DNA from: a virus
IMG/VR virus record: IMGVR_UViG_3300029263_000694
Span: 1-21,690 of that record
DNA length: 21,690 nucleotides
Reading direction: 5' to 3' (one strand)
Shown: positions 46 to 18,234 of the stretch, in pieces
Position numbering within the stretch: the stretch's first letter is position 1
How the letters are laid out: each line of letters opens with the position of its first letter
Translations under genes and position numbers: made by a program
The notes under the pieces: model-generated
What the model was told of the DNA's origin: nothing
The model's database searches: none
What the model saw: the letters and a program-made list of their open reading frames with translations, nothing else

Positions 46-2202
46 TTACCCAATTGTCGCTCCTTCAATTGTGTTTCTTTCTAAACTTTGAGCTGTTGTA
101 ACTTCCGATGCCACAACAAAAGCTTGTATTGGTTGCTGAGTTTGACCCCCTATTGCATCGGCTAATTGATTTGTTTCTCCTGCTCCAACCACGTTAAACT
201 CTGGTGGAATTGCTGGAATAGATTCAAGTCTTGGAGTTGCTGTTCCGGCAGCCGGATTGGATGCACTACCTCCTCCACCTTCTGACTTGGTTGCCATTAT
301 GGACTTAACAGATTTAAATCCAATTGCTGCGGTACTTGCTATGTTTACGAGCTTCATCGCAAAACCAAAAGGAGTTGCAGTTTTAGTAGCTAACTCTGCT
401 GTTATTCCCTGGTATGTATTGATTAATGCAGCTGCAACGGCAGCAGCTTTACCTGCTTTTGAATTTTCTCCTAATAGATTTGCTATACCTGCAAACGTAT
501 TTTTAGCCATATCAATCTCAGCATCTCTCTTAATCTTATCAATGTTTTCCTGCTCTTCATTGAACTTAGCTATAATCTTTAATTTATCGTCTTCCGTTCC
601 ACCTAGTCTTGTTAATTCATCTAATGCTTTTGTTTTTTGTTCTTCAAGACTTTCTTCTTCTTTAATTCCTTGTGCTTCTAAAAACGCAGCTTTTTTCTCA
701 TCAAGAACTATTTGTTCCTCGTCTTCTATAATTTTTTTCTTTTCCTTAAATGCTGCTTCAACATCAAGAATCATTTGTTGTTTTTCAGTTTCAGAAAGTT
801 TTAAATCTTCTAAAGCTTTTAATCTTGTTTCTTTTTCTGCTTCTATTTCTGCAAATTTATTTGATTTGTCTTTTACTCTTAATGCATCTTTAAAGTCTTG
901 AACTGCTTTTTCATCTGCTATTTTTGCATCTCTTAAAGCTTTACTTTCCGTAGCCTCTTCTCTAGTTGCTCCTAATATTTGAGCACTTACTGCTTTTGCT
1001 TTTGAGAGTTTAGCTGTTTCTAAGTCTATTAATTTCGCTCTTAAATTTGCTTCTTCATCTAAGTCTTCTTTCGTTGAATCGCCTAAAGCATTCTCTGCTA
1101 TTTTTGCATCTAGTCGTAATTGAGCTGCTTCAATTTCTTGCTTTGTTATTTCATCTTCTATTTTTCCAGCTTCTGTTAAAAATCCGATTCTTTCTTTAGC
1201 TGTAAAGTTTTCTTTTTGAGCTGCTTTGTCTAATAACTCTGCTCTCTTTCTATTTGCTTCGGCTCTTTCAGTTATTAACTTTCTATCTAATTTGTCTGCT
1301 TTTGCTCTTTGATCAGCAATTTTCGCAGCAATTTTACCCTCTTCTGTTAATTCTTTTATTAAGTCTTTTGTTCCTTTTACTAATGCTTGAGTCAAAATAA
1401 CTGCCGGATTTAAAGCTTCATTTAATCCAACAACTCCTTTTCCTGCATCTGCTAAAGCTCCAGAAAAATCTCCTTTAAATAACTTTGATATTGCCGAGCC
1501 TAAAAATCCTAAGCTTTCGACAACTTTATCAACCTTATCCATTACAAACTCCTTAATACTTTTTCCGAAATTCTTTAAAGTTTCAATTGGAGATGTAAAA
1601 AGATTAATTAAACCTCTACCTAAAGATGCTAATTTGTCTGTGAATACTCCTGTGATAGCTCCAAGAACTCCCATCATTTTATTGAAACTATCTTGTCCTT
1701 CTTCCGATGAAGTAAAAGCAGTTGCTAGTGATGTGATTGCAAGTAGTAAAGCTCCAATCCCTGTTCCAATTATAGCGATTTTCATCGCACCCAATCCTTT
1801 TGTAGCTGATCCAATTGACTTAGTCATTCCACCAATACTAGAGCCTAATCCTCCAGTCTTAGCATCAACCATACCTAGAACTCCACCATAATCTGCTGCG
1901 TTTTCTTCTGCGTCTTTTAAAGTATCATTTGCTTTTTGTCTATCAATTCTAACTTCTTTTAATCCAATCTTCTCCTCTTTTAATCTTGAAGTAGTTACTG
2001 CAATTTTATCATTTATTGCTTTTCTTCCTGCAAGATTTGCTTTTGAAGTTTTCTTTAATTGCTTTTGATACCCAAATAATTCTTTTTCAATATTAAAGAT
2101 TAAATCTTCCTGGAGTTTTAAAGATTCATTTAATTCTTCAACATTCGCTTGAGCTTGTTCCGTTGATATTTTTAAACTATATTCTTTTTCTATTACAGCC
2201 AT
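46..2202 (-). CDS. Tail tape measure protein
   Basis: This 718-residue protein is the longest in the window and has the make-up of a siphovirus tape measure protein, which sets tail length and is packed inside the tail tube until DNA ejection. Residues 1-105 are Lys/Glu/Gln-rich coiled coil. A Gly-rich stretch then leads to a hydrophobic segment at about 139-163 (beginning MKIAIIGTGIGALLLAI). Residues 285-600 are a long charged coiled coil full of Ala, Glu and Lys, and residues 610-665 are Ala-rich and hydrophobic, as in the membrane-active ends of other tape measures. By the rule of thumb of 0.15 nm per residue the tail would be roughly 105-110 nm; that is an estimate. The start overlaps the stop of the small gene upstream by ten bases. 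No lysozyme or peptidase domain is evident. The function call rests on length, composition and context. Confidence 0.85.
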   Translation of the reverse strand: MAVIEKEYSLKISTEQAQANVEELNESLKLQEDLIFNIEKELFGYQKQLKKTSKANLAGRKAINDKIAVTTSRLKEEKIGLKEVRIDRQKANDTLKDAEENAADYGGVLGMVDAKTGGLGSSIGGMTKSIGSATKGLGAMKIAIIGTGIGALLLAITSLATAFTSSEEGQDSFNKMMGVLGAITGVFTDKLASLGRGLINLFTSPIETLKNFGKSIKEFVMDKVDKVVESLGFLGSAISKLFKGDFSGALADAGKGVVGLNEALNPAVILTQALVKGTKDLIKELTEEGKIAAKIADQRAKADKLDRKLITERAEANRKRAELLDKAAQKENFTAKERIGFLTEAGKIEDEITKQEIEAAQLRLDAKIAENALGDSTKEDLDEEANLRAKLIDLETAKLSKAKAVSAQILGATREEATESKALRDAKIADEKAVQDFKDALRVKDKSNKFAEIEAEKETRLKALEDLKLSETEKQQMILDVEAAFKEKKKIIEDEEQIVLDEKKAAFLEAQGIKEEESLEEQKTKALDELTRLGGTEDDKLKIIAKFNEEQENIDKIKRDAEIDMAKNTFAGIANLLGENSKAGKAAAVAAALINTYQGITAELATKTATPFGFAMKLVNIASTAAIGFKSVKSIMATKSEGGGGSASNPAAGTATPRLESIPAIPPEFNVVGAGETNQLADAIGGQTQQPIQAFVVASEVTTAQSLERNTIEGATIG

Positions 2203-5459: not shown

Positions 5460-6017
5460 TTATTGTTTTTTTCCTAAAATTATCGCTTCTTCAATATCTA
5501 ATACAAAAGCTTTAAAAATCTCATTATCTAACTTTTTTAACATTCTATTATATGGTTTACTAAAAAAGAAAGTTGGCTTAATTCCTTGATAATAAATACT
5601 TCTTTGTAAAGCAAATCCCATTTGAATGTTTGTTCCTTTTTGATATTGTCCAAGCTTATTTCTAAACCTTATATTTTTCTTCTTTGCCCAATCTGCTAGT
5701 ATCTGCATTGGTGGCATTTTATTCGTGTACTTAAATTTACTAAGAGGAGCTTTTTGAACTCCTTTTTTATCGTCATTATTTTTGTATATTTGATTTGGGT
5801 CTTTTCCCTGGACTCCCTGATCAACAAATTTTCCATAAGATTCCATTAAGAAGTCTAATAGAAAAAAATCTTTTTCTGTATCTAATTCATAAGAAATAGA
5901 ATCTTCTAAAGCACCACCTCCTTTTGATGGATCAGCATTTTGTAAGTTTTCTTTCGCTTGAGCGACAACTTCTTTTCCGTATTTATTTAATATTTTATCT
6001 AAATTTTCTAAATTCAT
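5460..6017 (-). CDS. Head-tail or tail completion protein (HK97 gp10-like)
   Basis: This 185-residue basic protein opens with an amphipathic helix (LDKILNKYGKEVVAQAKENL), followed by a segment reading MESYGKFVDQGVQGKDP near residues 58-74. An aromatic residue followed by a Val-Asp-x-Gly turn after an initial helix is typical of the HK97 gp10 and lambda gpZ type of tail completion proteins, which finish the neck of the tail. The C-terminal half is Lys- and aromatic-rich. The ATG overlaps the stop of the upstream 156-residue gene as TAATG, so the two are likely co-translated. Family assignment is by motif and context and is moderate. Confidence 0.6.
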   Translation of the reverse strand: MNLENLDKILNKYGKEVVAQAKENLQNADPSKGGGALEDSISYELDTEKDFFLLDFLMESYGKFVDQGVQGKDPNQIYKNNDDKKGVQKAPLSKFKYTNKMPPMQILADWAKKKNIRFRNKLGQYQKGTNIQMGFALQRSIYYQGIKPTFFFSKPYNRMLKKLDNEIFKAFVLDIEEAIILGKKQ

Positions 6018-6487
6018 TAACAGATATTTATATCGTTATAAATCATTATGTCCATTGTTGCAGTCCATCCGGCTAACTGATTCTCGAATCTATCATAAAA
6101 CGGAGTTAAATTTGGATTCCCATCTAATTGATACATTTCAGTATATAAAGTTCCCTTTCTTAATCTCTGGATTAATCTATTTAAAACAGCGAGTTGAGTA
6201 TTTAAAATATCCTGCACATCGTTATTTCCTGTAAATCTATCAATAGTTAAATCCTTTGATTGGTCAACAATATCACAGGCTAAAATGCTAATATTAAATC
6301 TTAGCACCTGCTCTTCATCTATTACGCTATTTATTATAATATGCCCTAAAGGAAATAAATCTTGTTTATTTAAATTGACATCAGTTAAATCTCCTGTCGT
6401 AACAGTATTAATATTCTTGTCTTCTAATAGCTCTGTTTTAATTGTTTCCGTTAATTGATAAAAACCTCTTATTCCTTCTTGACTCAT
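6017..6487 (-). CDS. Tail terminator or neck-type protein (156 aa)
   Basis: The protein starts with a helix (YQLTETIKTELLEDKNI), followed by VTTGDLTDVNLNKQDLFPLGHIIINS, of which the part up to PLGH is characteristic of a small protein found between completion and tail genes in Bacteroidetes phages. The C-terminus holds ENQLAGWTATMDIMI, a beta hairpin. Size and fold pattern resemble tail terminator proteins of the lambda gpU type, but this is inferred. The ATG overlaps the TGA of the -1 frame of the chaperone-like gene as ATGA, which ties its translation to the frameshift product upstream. Confidence 0.55.
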   Translation of the reverse strand: MSQEGIRGFYQLTETIKTELLEDKNINTVTTGDLTDVNLNKQDLFPLGHIIINSVIDEEQVLRFNISILACDIVDQSKDLTIDRFTGNNDVQDILNTQLAVLNRLIQRLRKGTLYTEMYQLDGNPNLTPFYDRFENQLAGWTATMDIMIYNDINIC

Positions 6488-7220
6488 TTGAATTTCTTTT
6501 TAATTTGTTTTGCTTCTAGCTCGTTTTTATCTTTCATAAAGGATAGCATCATAAAACATTCGTGAACATTTAATTTAGTGATACTTTCAAATTTTTCAAT
6601 ACATCCGTTAGCGAGTCCATAAATTGACTGGTACCAACCCCATTTGCTTGAGAAGTTAGATACTGCGTCAAGGCTTCCGTTTCCTGATTGTCCAAAGAGT
6701 TCGTCATAGTTCTCGACAAGTCGAGTCCTAAATTCCACAAAAAAAAAATTGATGACATTGCTGCATCCATTGGCATATTTAAAAGTTGCTGATCATTTTC
6801 TAATTTATATTCTTCTATATTATATTTGTCTTTTAATTTAACAACAATAGGTCTATATAAAACATTCATTGCTTTTTCCATATTTTCCCAATCTCCAATA
6901 TAAGTGTCTAAGTCAATATATTCCCCTAAAGTTAATTCATCAAGTTGAGGTTGAAAGCCATATTCTATACCATTTAATTTAAATCTAGTAACTAATCCTG
7001 GTTTTTCATCAAATAGATTAGACAATATTTTAACTATCTCCTGCGAATCATTTAATCTTAAAAGCATAACTTGGTCAAGTTTTACATTGCAAAGAATCTC
7101 AATCATTTTAGCATTTAAAAATCGCTGATCTTCTACCGTTTCTTGAATCTTTAAAAAATGTTTATACTGCTTTAATGTAATATCTTTTAAGGATGTAGGT
7201 ATTTTAATATTCATTTTCAT
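6484..7220 (-). CDS. Predicted -1 frameshift fusion of the chaperone-like gene (245 aa)
   Basis: A slip of one base backwards on the T run at 6748-6739 joins residues 1-160 of the 216-residue protein to an 85-codon -1 frame, giving 245 residues. The -1 frame has clear protein character: a Trp/Tyr-rich segment (SSKWGWYQSIYGLANG), then ITKLNVHECFMMLSFMKDK and a Lys-rich tail. It has no good start of its own; its first candidate is a GTG at 6738. Its stop overlaps the ATG of the next gene as ATGA, so the genome is organised around this frame ending there. The two frames overlap for about 170 bases and both look like coding sequence, which argues against a simple sequencing error. Confidence 0.7.
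6570..7220 (-). CDS. Tail-assembly-chaperone-like protein, unshifted product (216 aa)
   Basis: This acidic to neutral helical protein begins MKMNIKIPTSLKDITLKQY and has no export signal. It includes FGFQP/GEYIDLD-type segments (seen here as YGFQPQLDELTLGEYIDLD near 91-110) and VLYRPI at 121-126. Codons 158-160 are ATT TTT TTT, inside a run of ten T at 6748-6739. Reading on in frame gives 56 further residues. A second open frame (-1) begins at the T run and continues to 6484. Short and frameshifted products from one start are the hallmark of siphophage tail assembly chaperones such as lambda gpG/gpGT. Two ATG codons (7220 and 7214) are possible starts; the first is at the fixed distance from the upstream motif. 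The chaperone role is inferred. Confidence 0.75.
   Translation of the reverse strand: MKMNIKIPTSLKDITLKQYKHFLKIQETVEDQRFLNAKMIEILCNVKLDQVMLLRLNDSQEIVKILSNLFDEKPGLVTRFKLNGIEYGFQPQLDELTLGEYIDLDTYIGDWENMEKAMNVLYRPIVVKLKDKYNIEEYKLENDQQLLNMPMDAAMSSIFFLWNLGLDLSRTMTNSLDNQETEALTQYLTSQANGVGTSQFMDSLTDVLKNLKVSLN
6712..6749 (-). other. -1 frameshift signal: T10 slippery run plus hairpin
   Basis: In the zero frame the codons read ATT TTT TTT TTG TGG, so both T_TTT_TTT and T_TTT_TTG heptamers fit the X_XXY_YYZ rule. Thirteen bases after the run lies CTCGACTTGTCGAG (6725-6712), a perfect five- or six-base stem with a very tight loop. The spacer is somewhat longer than the usual 5-9 bases, so the hairpin may be a weak stimulator or the long T run may slip without it. 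Confidence 0.65.
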
Positions 7221-7267: not shown

Positions 7268-7296
7268 AAAAAAAAGGCAGCCATTTCTAGCCACCT
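7268..7296 (-). terminator. Rho-independent terminator after the small-gene cluster
   Basis: The minus-strand RNA reads GGUGGC, eight-base loop, GCUGCC, then eight U. The six-base stem contains two G-U pairs, with an extra A-U at its foot. Because of the G-U pairs only the minus-strand transcript folds well, so the signal is directional. It closes the cluster 7964-7327. Confidence 0.75.
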
Positions 7297-8030: not shown

Positions 8031-9194
8031 TTAATTAAGAGCATAGCGACCAAAGTTCGGTCTTGACAATATAGAGTAAGTCGCATACCGACAGGGGTCA
8101 ATAATATGATTGTGCTTATCTTCTGGAACATTAATTAACATCCCTGCTTTATCTTCTTTCCACTTATAGTTTCTAAATTCAGATATGGCATTAGTTGAGG
8201 AACTTAAAATGTGAATCTTGTACCTCTTCAATAAATCAATTCCGGCATTGATTGAATCCTTTCCTTTTATACTTGGAAATATATTGTGACCCATTCTCCT
8301 CAACTCTGCGATTAATCTTGGTTCTGCTGAATCGGCATAAATTGGATTAGATAAAAGCTTCTCTTCTTTTAAAAATATATTAATATCATTTGTTGTCATT
8401 TGAGTTCGATACAAATGTTCTTTTATATATAGATTATGACCTTGAGTATAGACAGAAACTAAAGTGCTTGGGTCATTTGAATAACCAAAGTCCATTCCAT
8501 AAGCTATCAAAGTAGCATCAACAGGAACAAGATTAATTTCTGAATATGTAAAAATTGTGCTTCTACTTGCAGCTCTTTCGCCTAATCCGTAAACTTGCCA
8601 ATATTGGTCATCTGTATCTTTAAGTCTTTCAATCTCTTTTATTATTGATTCTTCAATAAATGGATTATCTAAATAGGTAGTTTTAAAAAAGGCACAATCT
8701 TCTCGTGGCAAGACTTTGTCATAAATCCAATGGTATTCATCCGATGGATTAAAATCCAGGATTATCTGCTCCTGCGTTCTAAAGATTAATTGTTGCCAAT
8801 CTTCAAAATATAGTTCGTTTGCTTCATTGATAAAAAGCAGGTCTCTTTTTCTACCTCTAATTTTTTGTGGCTGATCTAAAGAAATAAACTCAATTAGATT
8901 TCCATAAAGATGGTATTCAGAATTTGACTTATTATGGAACTTTTCTCTATATATTTTGTGAGCCTGGAGGATGCTAATAAAATCTCTTAAAACTGTAGCT
9001 CTTAAACTTGGAAAAGCTTTTCGACATATAGTGATAATCTTATTATTATTATTTGTGCAGTATTGGAATATTATCCAAAGCAAGATATTATAAGTTTTGC
9101 CGGAACGAGTTCCTCCCTGCTCAACTAGAATCTTCTTTTCATTATCTAATAAATGCTCGTAGACTGCATTAGTCTTTATCTTTAGTTCTTCCAA
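8031..9194 (-). CDS. terL: Terminase large subunit
   Basis: The motor and nuclease that packages phage DNA into the empty head. The N-terminal ATPase has a Walker A motif GGTRSGKT at 27-34 and a Walker B-type segment ending DLLFINEAN at 118-126, with Glu124 as the likely catalytic residue. An RGRKRD segment precedes Walker B, as in the phage terminase family. The C-terminal RNase H-like nuclease shows MDFG with Asp235, YADSAEP with Asp288, and HIIDP with Asp366, a three-acid arrangement consistent with metal-dependent cleavage. At 387 residues it is on the short side but complete. It overlaps the small subunit by 26 bases. No portal or capsid gene follows: the next genes leftwards are tiny accessory genes and then tail genes, which is unusual. 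Confidence 0.95.
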   Translation of the reverse strand: MEELKIKTNAVYEHLLDNEKKILVEQGGTRSGKTYNILLWIIFQYCTNNNNKIITICRKAFPSLRATVLRDFISILQAHKIYREKFHNKSNSEYHLYGNLIEFISLDQPQKIRGRKRDLLFINEANELYFEDWQQLIFRTQEQIILDFNPSDEYHWIYDKVLPREDCAFFKTTYLDNPFIEESIIKEIERLKDTDDQYWQVYGLGERAASRSTIFTYSEINLVPVDATLIAYGMDFGYSNDPSTLVSVYTQGHNLYIKEHLYRTQMTTNDINIFLKEEKLLSNPIYADSAEPRLIAELRRMGHNIFPSIKGKDSINAGIDLLKRYKIHILSSSTNAISEFRNYKWKEDKAGMLINVPEDKHNHIIDPCRYATYSILSRPNFGRYALN

Positions 9195-9539: not shown

Positions 9540-9610
9540 AGCGATAGGGTAGAATCGAACTCCTCCTCTTAACTGGAATGTTAAATGTGCAACCATTACA
9601 CTTCTATCGC
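9540..9610 (-). tRNA. tRNA-like gene, probable anticodon TCC (Gly), atypical
   Basis: The minus strand folds with a perfect seven-base acceptor stem (GCGATAG with CTATCGC), a D stem GTGT with GCAC (one wobble) and a D loop containing GG, and a T loop TTCGATT. The anticodon arm is abnormal: TTTAA with TTAAG leaves an eight-base loop CATTCCAG, or six pairs leave a six-base loop ATTCCA; neither gives the normal seven. The T stem AGGAG with CTACC has two mismatches. No CCA is encoded. The most natural anticodon is TCC. The gene may be a functional but odd tRNA, a decaying one, or a tRNA mimic that marks the message for processing. Confidence 0.65.
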
Positions 9611-16977: not shown

Positions 16978-17012
16978 AAAAAAAAAAGGTATGAATTAAT
17001 ATAACTCATACC
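16978..17012 (-). terminator. Rho-independent terminator after the SSB-like gene
   Basis: GGTATGA (17012-17006 on the minus strand) pairs perfectly with TCATACC (16994-16988) over an 11-base loop, followed by ten T (16987-16978). An A run on the other side makes it usable on both strands. It separates the SSB group from the ATPase and sigma group. Confidence 0.8.
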
Positions 17013-18207: not shown

Positions 18208-18234
18208 AAAAAAAAAGGTCAATATATATCAACC
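18208..18234 (-). terminator. Rho-independent terminator after the NinG-like gene
   Basis: The minus-strand RNA GGUUGA, loop UAUAUA, UUGACC, then nine U. Two G-U pairs make the stem stable only for this strand. It lies between the nuclease gene and the next promoter. Confidence 0.7.

Follow-up and report, generated by a model that had tools for sequence, protein, structure and literature searches.

Comparison of homologous loci identifies hundreds of related, mostly uncultured phages as a group with a conserved, evidently programmed frame transition in one gene. We consider it fairly probable that the explanation as a whole is correct, namely a conserved programmed T9-T10 frame transition, most likely caused by slippage of the polymerase, that yields a tail protein pair of the G/GT type. 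The slip gene is a probable tail-assembly gene and, judged from its homologues, appears unusual for the selection acting on its T9-T10 run.

According to the proposed mechanism, most mRNAs would be translated into a zero-frame protein of 216 aa. A fraction of the mRNAs, with one extra U (or two fewer), would lead ordinary translation into the -1 frame and to a fusion of 245 aa, and the products of the opposite shift would end after a few codons. The likeliest cause would be a slip of the RNA polymerase on a T run as long as its RNA:DNA hybrid of 9-10 bp, with a ribosomal -1 slip on the embedded U_UUU_UUU as a possible additional contribution. The common N-domain would carry either the zero-frame tail or the T-like domain, and the two forms would act in tail assembly as a pair of the G/GT type. 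That the polymerase slips and that the pair has a tail-chaperone role are both what we infer from the data below.

The slip gene and its conservation in two frames

The window analyzed here is an IMG/VR virus contig of 21,690 bases, in which the slip gene is read on the minus strand. The relevant features are:

6570-7220, minus strand: zero-frame ORF, 216 aa, ATG start (PHROG 32199, unknown function; homologues found)
6739-6748, minus strand: putative T10 slippage run, zero frame ATT TTT TTT TTG, with the in-frame heptamer U_UUU_UUU
6484-6741, minus strand: predicted extension in the -1 frame (85 codons and the stop TGA) with the T-like domain
6570-6738, minus strand: dual-coding overlap 3' of the run, approximately 55 codons in both frames
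6712-6725, minus strand: CTCGA/TCGAG hairpin, present in the window, unconserved and set aside from the mechanism
6017-6487, minus strand: next gene, 156 aa (PHROG 30964), its start overlapping the -1 stop
5460-6017, minus strand: HK97-gp10-like or tail completion/neck protein (weak match), context
46-2202, minus strand: 718-aa tape-measure candidate (PHROG 32985, unknown function), by size and composition only
8031-9194, minus strand: terminase large subunit, context

The zero-frame ORF comprises an N-domain (approximately residues 1-157) and, after the run, a tail of 56 codons reading from TTG to TAA. The run consists of exactly ten T on the minus strand (A10 on the plus strand). Immediately 3' of it the -1 frame has a GTG (position 6738). 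The T-like domain carries the motif K-W-G-W-Y-Q-S-I, and its stop TGA at 6486-6484 overlaps the ATG of the next gene (6487) as ATGA. A slip on U_UUU_UUU is predicted to yield a fusion of 160 + 85 = 245 aa. When the minus strand was re-read, the preliminary description proved right in its coordinates and counts for a ten-T run inside a 216-codon ORF, in the 56 zero-frame codons after the run, in the -1 frame of 85 codons ending as ATGA with the next gene and in the arithmetic of a 245-residue fusion beside a 216-residue product. Of the programmed -1 frameshift that it had proposed, the conserved -1 transition and the selection on both products stood, but ribosomal slippage as the obvious mechanism did not.

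Homologous loci were collected using the 216-aa protein, the -1 product and alignments of the -1 domain without the run as queries, and loci from isolates and genomes were included. All 381 loci had the N-domain in the zero frame and the T-like domain in the -1 frame, joined at the same T run; an independent recheck of the frame relation gave the same result. The family extended down to a protein identity of approximately 27%, its most divergent members ranging from 27 to 40%. As a control for bias a separate search was performed with the upstream domain alone, and each of the 80 loci returned (80/80) carried a run of T9 to T11. Run length was determined in 373 distinct sequences, corresponding to 108 clusters at 70% and 33 clusters at 50% identity of the -1 domain. 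Nine T were found in 253 of them, ten in 116, eight in three and eleven in one, i.e. 9-10 T in 369/373 and T9-T11 in 370/373. Elsewhere in the contigs of the 94-cluster set T runs of at least nine bases were rare (14 in 386 kb). An alignment of homologues, which had been suggested as a check on whether a slippery run is retained, showed it kept at the same place. Since the frame relation and the run are common to 381/381 and 80/80 loci, the arrangement at the T run is far beyond chance.

Eight T occurred in a single cluster (L238, L257 and L270; CTT TTT TTT ACT), which kept U_UUU_UUU and the -1 domain and may rely on another slip mode. Relatives with T9 were also present in two genome assemblies of the family Flavobacteriaceae (L469 and L470); the genome searches found few bacterial relatives. 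One close relative (L137) came from a MAG assigned to Epsilonproteobacteria, where its contig is probably a phage sequence binned by mistake.

The variability of codon positions was measured in 45 gap-free near relatives. By zero-frame codon position it amounted to 0.69/0.44/1.33 bits 5' of the run, the third position being the most variable. Past the zero-frame stop it was 0.26/0.84/0.44 bits, where the most variable position is the third of the -1 frame, and within the overlap it was low and even (0.40/0.61/0.59 bits). The variation by codon position changes from one frame to the other at the run, and the 55-codon overlap is under selection in both. The zero frame remained open after the run for a median of 55 codons. 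When codons were re-chosen synonymously for the -1 protein, it remained open for 14 codons on average and the observed length was reached in approximately 4% of the trials; in the same control with each sequence's own codons, which is weaker, it was reached in 14% of the trials on average. Because variability in the overlap is low and the zero frame stays open longer than in these controls, the tail of the short product is evidently maintained by selection as well.

The phages P12024S and P12024L, whose host is a marine Flavobacteriia strain, form a cultured isolate pair that carries the T9 site. Their homologue is located directly after the terminase gene and has the -1 extension. The zero frame reads ...ATA CTT TTT TTT TAT CAT... 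and the -1 frame FFLSFRERLRDLYPELY...KWSWYHTF.... Both halves are listed as separate hypothetical proteins, gp38 and gp39, with the fusion unannotated, and PHROGs assigns them to two unrelated families of unknown function (32199 and 38404); the earlier expectation that such genes are annotated as two ORFs was borne out here, and the comparison corrects this annotation. The query P0002 matched no isolate phage directly, and divergent members matched only P12024S/L.

Relation to tail assembly and genetic surroundings

A tail-chaperone role like that of lambda G/GT is our best guess, held with reasonable confidence; the pair may work like G/GT and is a candidate member of that family. The label 'chaperone-like' used in the preliminary description was not backed by any sequence match. 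Among 67 members no match to a Pfam tail-chaperone family was obtained, the top Pfam matches being due to chance, and no NCBIfam match was found. PHROG 166 ('tail protein') was matched weakly by 11/67 members (best E 0.008).

The AlphaFold model of the 216-aa protein (pLDDT 81) consisted mainly of helices, with a minor beta portion, and the slip point lies within its long C-terminal helix (151-193). The model of the -1 domain (pLDDT 79) was helical too. In BFVD the N-domain model matched many uncharacterised phage proteins, P12024S gp38 and a protein of Flavobacterium phage 6H; its similarity to proteins annotated as tail assembly chaperones was weak (E 0.06, prob 0.94; E 0.11, prob 0.60). A fold search of the N-domain against the PDB returned nothing usable, a known fold being still compatible with this, and PDB sequence profiles returned nothing.

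The slip gene opens a module that also encodes the gp10-like neck protein, and in the window small ORFs separate the slip gene from the terminase. In lambda-type pairs the genes are expected between those for the major tail protein and the tape measure, adjoining the latter. It is followed by the PHROG 30964 gene, the gp10-like gene, genes for 341 aa and 694 aa and then the 718-aa tape-measure candidate. An alternative is that the fusion is real and the pair is not a tail chaperone but, for example, a protein of the neck or connector whose extended version is minor, a logic comparable to that of T7 gp10A/10B. The P12024S gene directly after the terminase, the gp10-like neck gene that the window gene precedes, the distance from the tape-measure candidate, to which the slip gene does not adjoin, and the Pfam result (0/67) would all agree with such a protein. 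We nevertheless regard it as rather unlikely, given small, mostly helical proteins of G/GT size with the hinge in a long C-terminal helix, their location in the tail module, the weak BFVD similarity to such chaperones and the weak PHROG 166 matches.

Several further elements were observed around the gene. A terminator-like hairpin GGTGGCTAGAAATGGCTGCC followed by T8 is located just upstream of the slip gene (7268-7292, minus strand), and a hairpin with T6-T9 was found at about the same place in 26/86 clusters. From this recurrence the slip gene may begin a transcription unit of its own. On the coding strand, further T9-T10 runs are present at 16978-16987 and 18208-18216 (minus strand), both between ORFs. 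Between the gene of the terminase small subunit and the preceding ORF, at 9540-9610 on the minus strand, Infernal detected a tRNA (32.9 bits, gathering 29, E 1.3e-5); ARAGORN misses it, and its anticodon loop is seemingly one base too long.

The slipping enzyme and other routes to the second frame

The T run began at codon position 1, 2 or 3, and its length was held at 9-10 in each of these phases. Its two ends compensated each other: where the 5' codon had no middle T (GGT, AGT, GCT, TAT) the 3' codon started with TT in 7/7 clusters, compared with 10/83. Across 94 clusters this gave a Fisher p of 2.6e-6, which is indicative only since the sequences are related; at 50% clustering the counts were 3/3 versus 2/24 (p 0.003, likewise only indicative because of kinship). 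One run shorter than nine was observed in the 94 clusters, as against 7.5 expected with independent ends. In the second slippery codon T can be replaced by C without altering either protein, leaving U_UUU_UUC. This replacement was found in 0/124 sequences that would allow it, whereas C was found at 127/361 equivalent sites elsewhere in the overlap. The comparison demonstrates selection on run length, and these data fit selection on the whole run of 9-10 T, beyond the seven-base heptamer. Against this reading, T at the ends is also favoured by the residues preferred in the two frames (hydrophobic before, aromatic after, Phe-Phe).

No stimulator was conserved. The preliminary description had correctly placed a hairpin (CTCGA-CTTG-TCGAG) beginning 13 nt 3' of the run, but its role as a frameshift stimulator was dropped, as 0/94 clusters keep it and it is unconserved in the alignment columns. 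In the 94 clusters the folding energy downstream of the run equalled that of shuffled sequence (mean z -0.21). Motifs resembling a Shine-Dalgarno sequence were found in 11/94 clusters, none of them forming a conserved stimulator. For -1 ribosomal frameshifting a conserved stimulator is frequent and not obligatory.

Bacterial RNA polymerase slips efficiently at nine As or Ts, its RNA:DNA hybrid being 9-10 bp long (PMC5009743), and the E. coli polymerase shows more slippage on poly-T (PMC6260861). T runs longer than eight bases take part in transcriptional slippage (PMC3711429), and a run of 9A or 9T conserved among homologues very likely reflects purposeful transcriptional slippage (PMC1088944). 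At least nine T with conserved length, the pattern of transcriptional slippage, were present here in 370/373 sequences and were kept whatever the codon phase. On the strength of run length, end compensation, the missing silent C, the lack of a stimulator and this published work we favour RNA polymerase over the ribosome as the probable slipping enzyme; a mixture of both is possible, with a ribosomal slip as the main rival.

In a purely ribosomal, lambda-like -1 frameshift, two tRNA-Phe would slip on U_UUU_UUU with little or no stimulation. An in-frame U_UUU_UUU, the X_XXY_YYZ heptamer of ribosomal shifting, is indeed present in every cluster including that with T8, and the frame relation is always -1; furthermore, the lambda-type tail shift is widespread and needs no strong stimulator (PMC5009743). 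Any run of nine T must contain this heptamer, so that the runs are compatible with a ribosomal shift, and the T8 cluster and the partial non-independence of the clusters also speak against polymerase slippage. We still judge the purely ribosomal explanation unlikely: a total run of at least nine in all three phases with compensating ends exceeds the seven bases needed, conserved stimulators are missing, and U_UUU_UUU is far less prone to shifting than A_AAA_AAG in E. coli (PMC5009743). The lack of U_UUU_UUC points in the same direction and is not decisive, as UUC should slip a little less readily.

Across the homologue set (183 contigs), coding sequence was strongly depleted of T runs of at least seven bases relative to non-coding sequence (ratio 0.05 for T8 and 0.02 for T9), and much less so of A runs (A8 0.40, A9 0.44). 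The depletion of T8 and longer runs fits an avoidance of slippage; it is confounded by amino-acid composition and terminators and was not used as main evidence.

It is very improbable that no fusion is made and that the second frame is instead expressed independently, through re-initiation or a separate start codon. The GTG at 6738 directly 3' of the run would offer such a start, and P12024S gp39 is annotated from an ATG overlapping the gp38 stop. The GTG was dropped as an internal start codon, however, since relatives have CTG, TGG, TAC, TAT or TCG in its place. Separate start codons for the second frame, which the preliminary description had named as an observation against the slip, were looked for among the relatives, and no conserved one was found. 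Moreover, conservation of the -1 frame sets in at the run, 5' of any possible start (F-x-F-R-x-R...Y-x-E-L-F), and a free start would need no T9 run.

Fold-level relatives with both domains in one frame also argue against separate translation. Nine BFVD proteins of 226-267 aa were matched by the models of both the N-domain and the -1 domain (A0A516L611, A0A516L5A8, A0A6J5SVK3, A0A6J7WDG4, A0A6J5N0W0, A0A6J5N3F3, A0A6J7WJY4, A0A6J7XA66 and A0A6J5MY57). In a genome of the family Flavobacteriaceae (L472, G040) a T-like domain ends a single frame of 218 codons with no long T run. Together these suggest distant relatives with both domains in one frame. The preliminary description had regarded fused homologues as refuting a slip; at long range they seem to exist, and they seem to support the fusion as a real, functional form rather than to refute the slip. 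In Flavobacterium phage 6H (L386), AGN89393 is a fold-level relative of the N-domain. Behind it lies an unannotated gap in which the -1 frame is open (10352-10047, minus strand). The gap has no long T run, no run of at least seven T being present at the corresponding place, and may contain a differently programmed shift.

Homopolymers are error-prone and vary by replication slippage, but a sequencing or assembly error, a pseudogene or a phase-variable homopolymer is refuted by the constant frame relation in 381/381 loci, which come from numerous samples and include isolates as well as assembled bacterial genomes, by purifying selection in both frames and by a run length confined to 8-11 with no in-frame corrected copies seen, and its probability is negligible.

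Significance and comparison with known systems

Frameshifting in tail chaperone genes is usually regarded as ribosomal. For a gene that is probably of this kind, the hundreds of natural sequences compared here speak for slippage of the polymerase. They would offer a clear test case for the question whether assembly ratios in phages can be set at the level of transcription. That a polymerase slip sets a G/GT-like ratio at transcription in the phages related to P12024S/L, in addition to the dual reading of 55 codons, is a possibility which we put forward tentatively. Finders that were trained on XXXYYYZ and expect a nearby zero-frame stop would tend to overlook this site, which lies 56 codons ahead of the stop.

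In lambda, the tail assembly chaperones G and G-T are said to be produced by a programmed -1 frameshift according to Xu, Hendrix and Duda (2004). The gene pair described here resembles G/GT in its two overlapping ORFs in -1 relation, with a short product and a fusion to a second domain, in its location in the tail module and in the protein sizes. Overlapping ORFs with a -1 shift at a conserved slippery site were found in 381/381 and 80/80 loci. It differs in its slip site, a T9-T10 run instead of a heptamer of the GGGAAAG type, in the zero frame, which continues for approximately 55 codons in a conserved dual-coding overlap, in its position, which is not directly upstream of the inferred tape-measure candidate, and in having no detectable sequence similarity to G/GT. 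The programmed -1 frameshift of the lambda chaperones has been reviewed (PMC5009743).

Among genes with transcriptional slippage, dnaX of Thermus thermophilus (A9), mxiE of Shigella and IS elements can be compared (PMC1088944, PMC3711429, PMC5009743). They share with the slip gene an uninterrupted run of at least nine A or T, a run length conserved among homologues, two products per gene and no ribosomal stimulator found. The case presented here differs in concerning a gene of a phage structural module, known from DNA sequence alone; in the open-access papers searched we found no phage tail-chaperone gene reported with transcriptional slippage.

The closest counterpart in isolates is gp38/gp39 of the Nonlabens (Persicivirga) phages P12024S/L (Inhavirus). 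Although this pair has approximately 30% identity to that of the window, a zero-frame tail of approximately 25 codons and an annotation as two hypothetical proteins, it is homologous and has a T9 run and a -1 extension at the same place.
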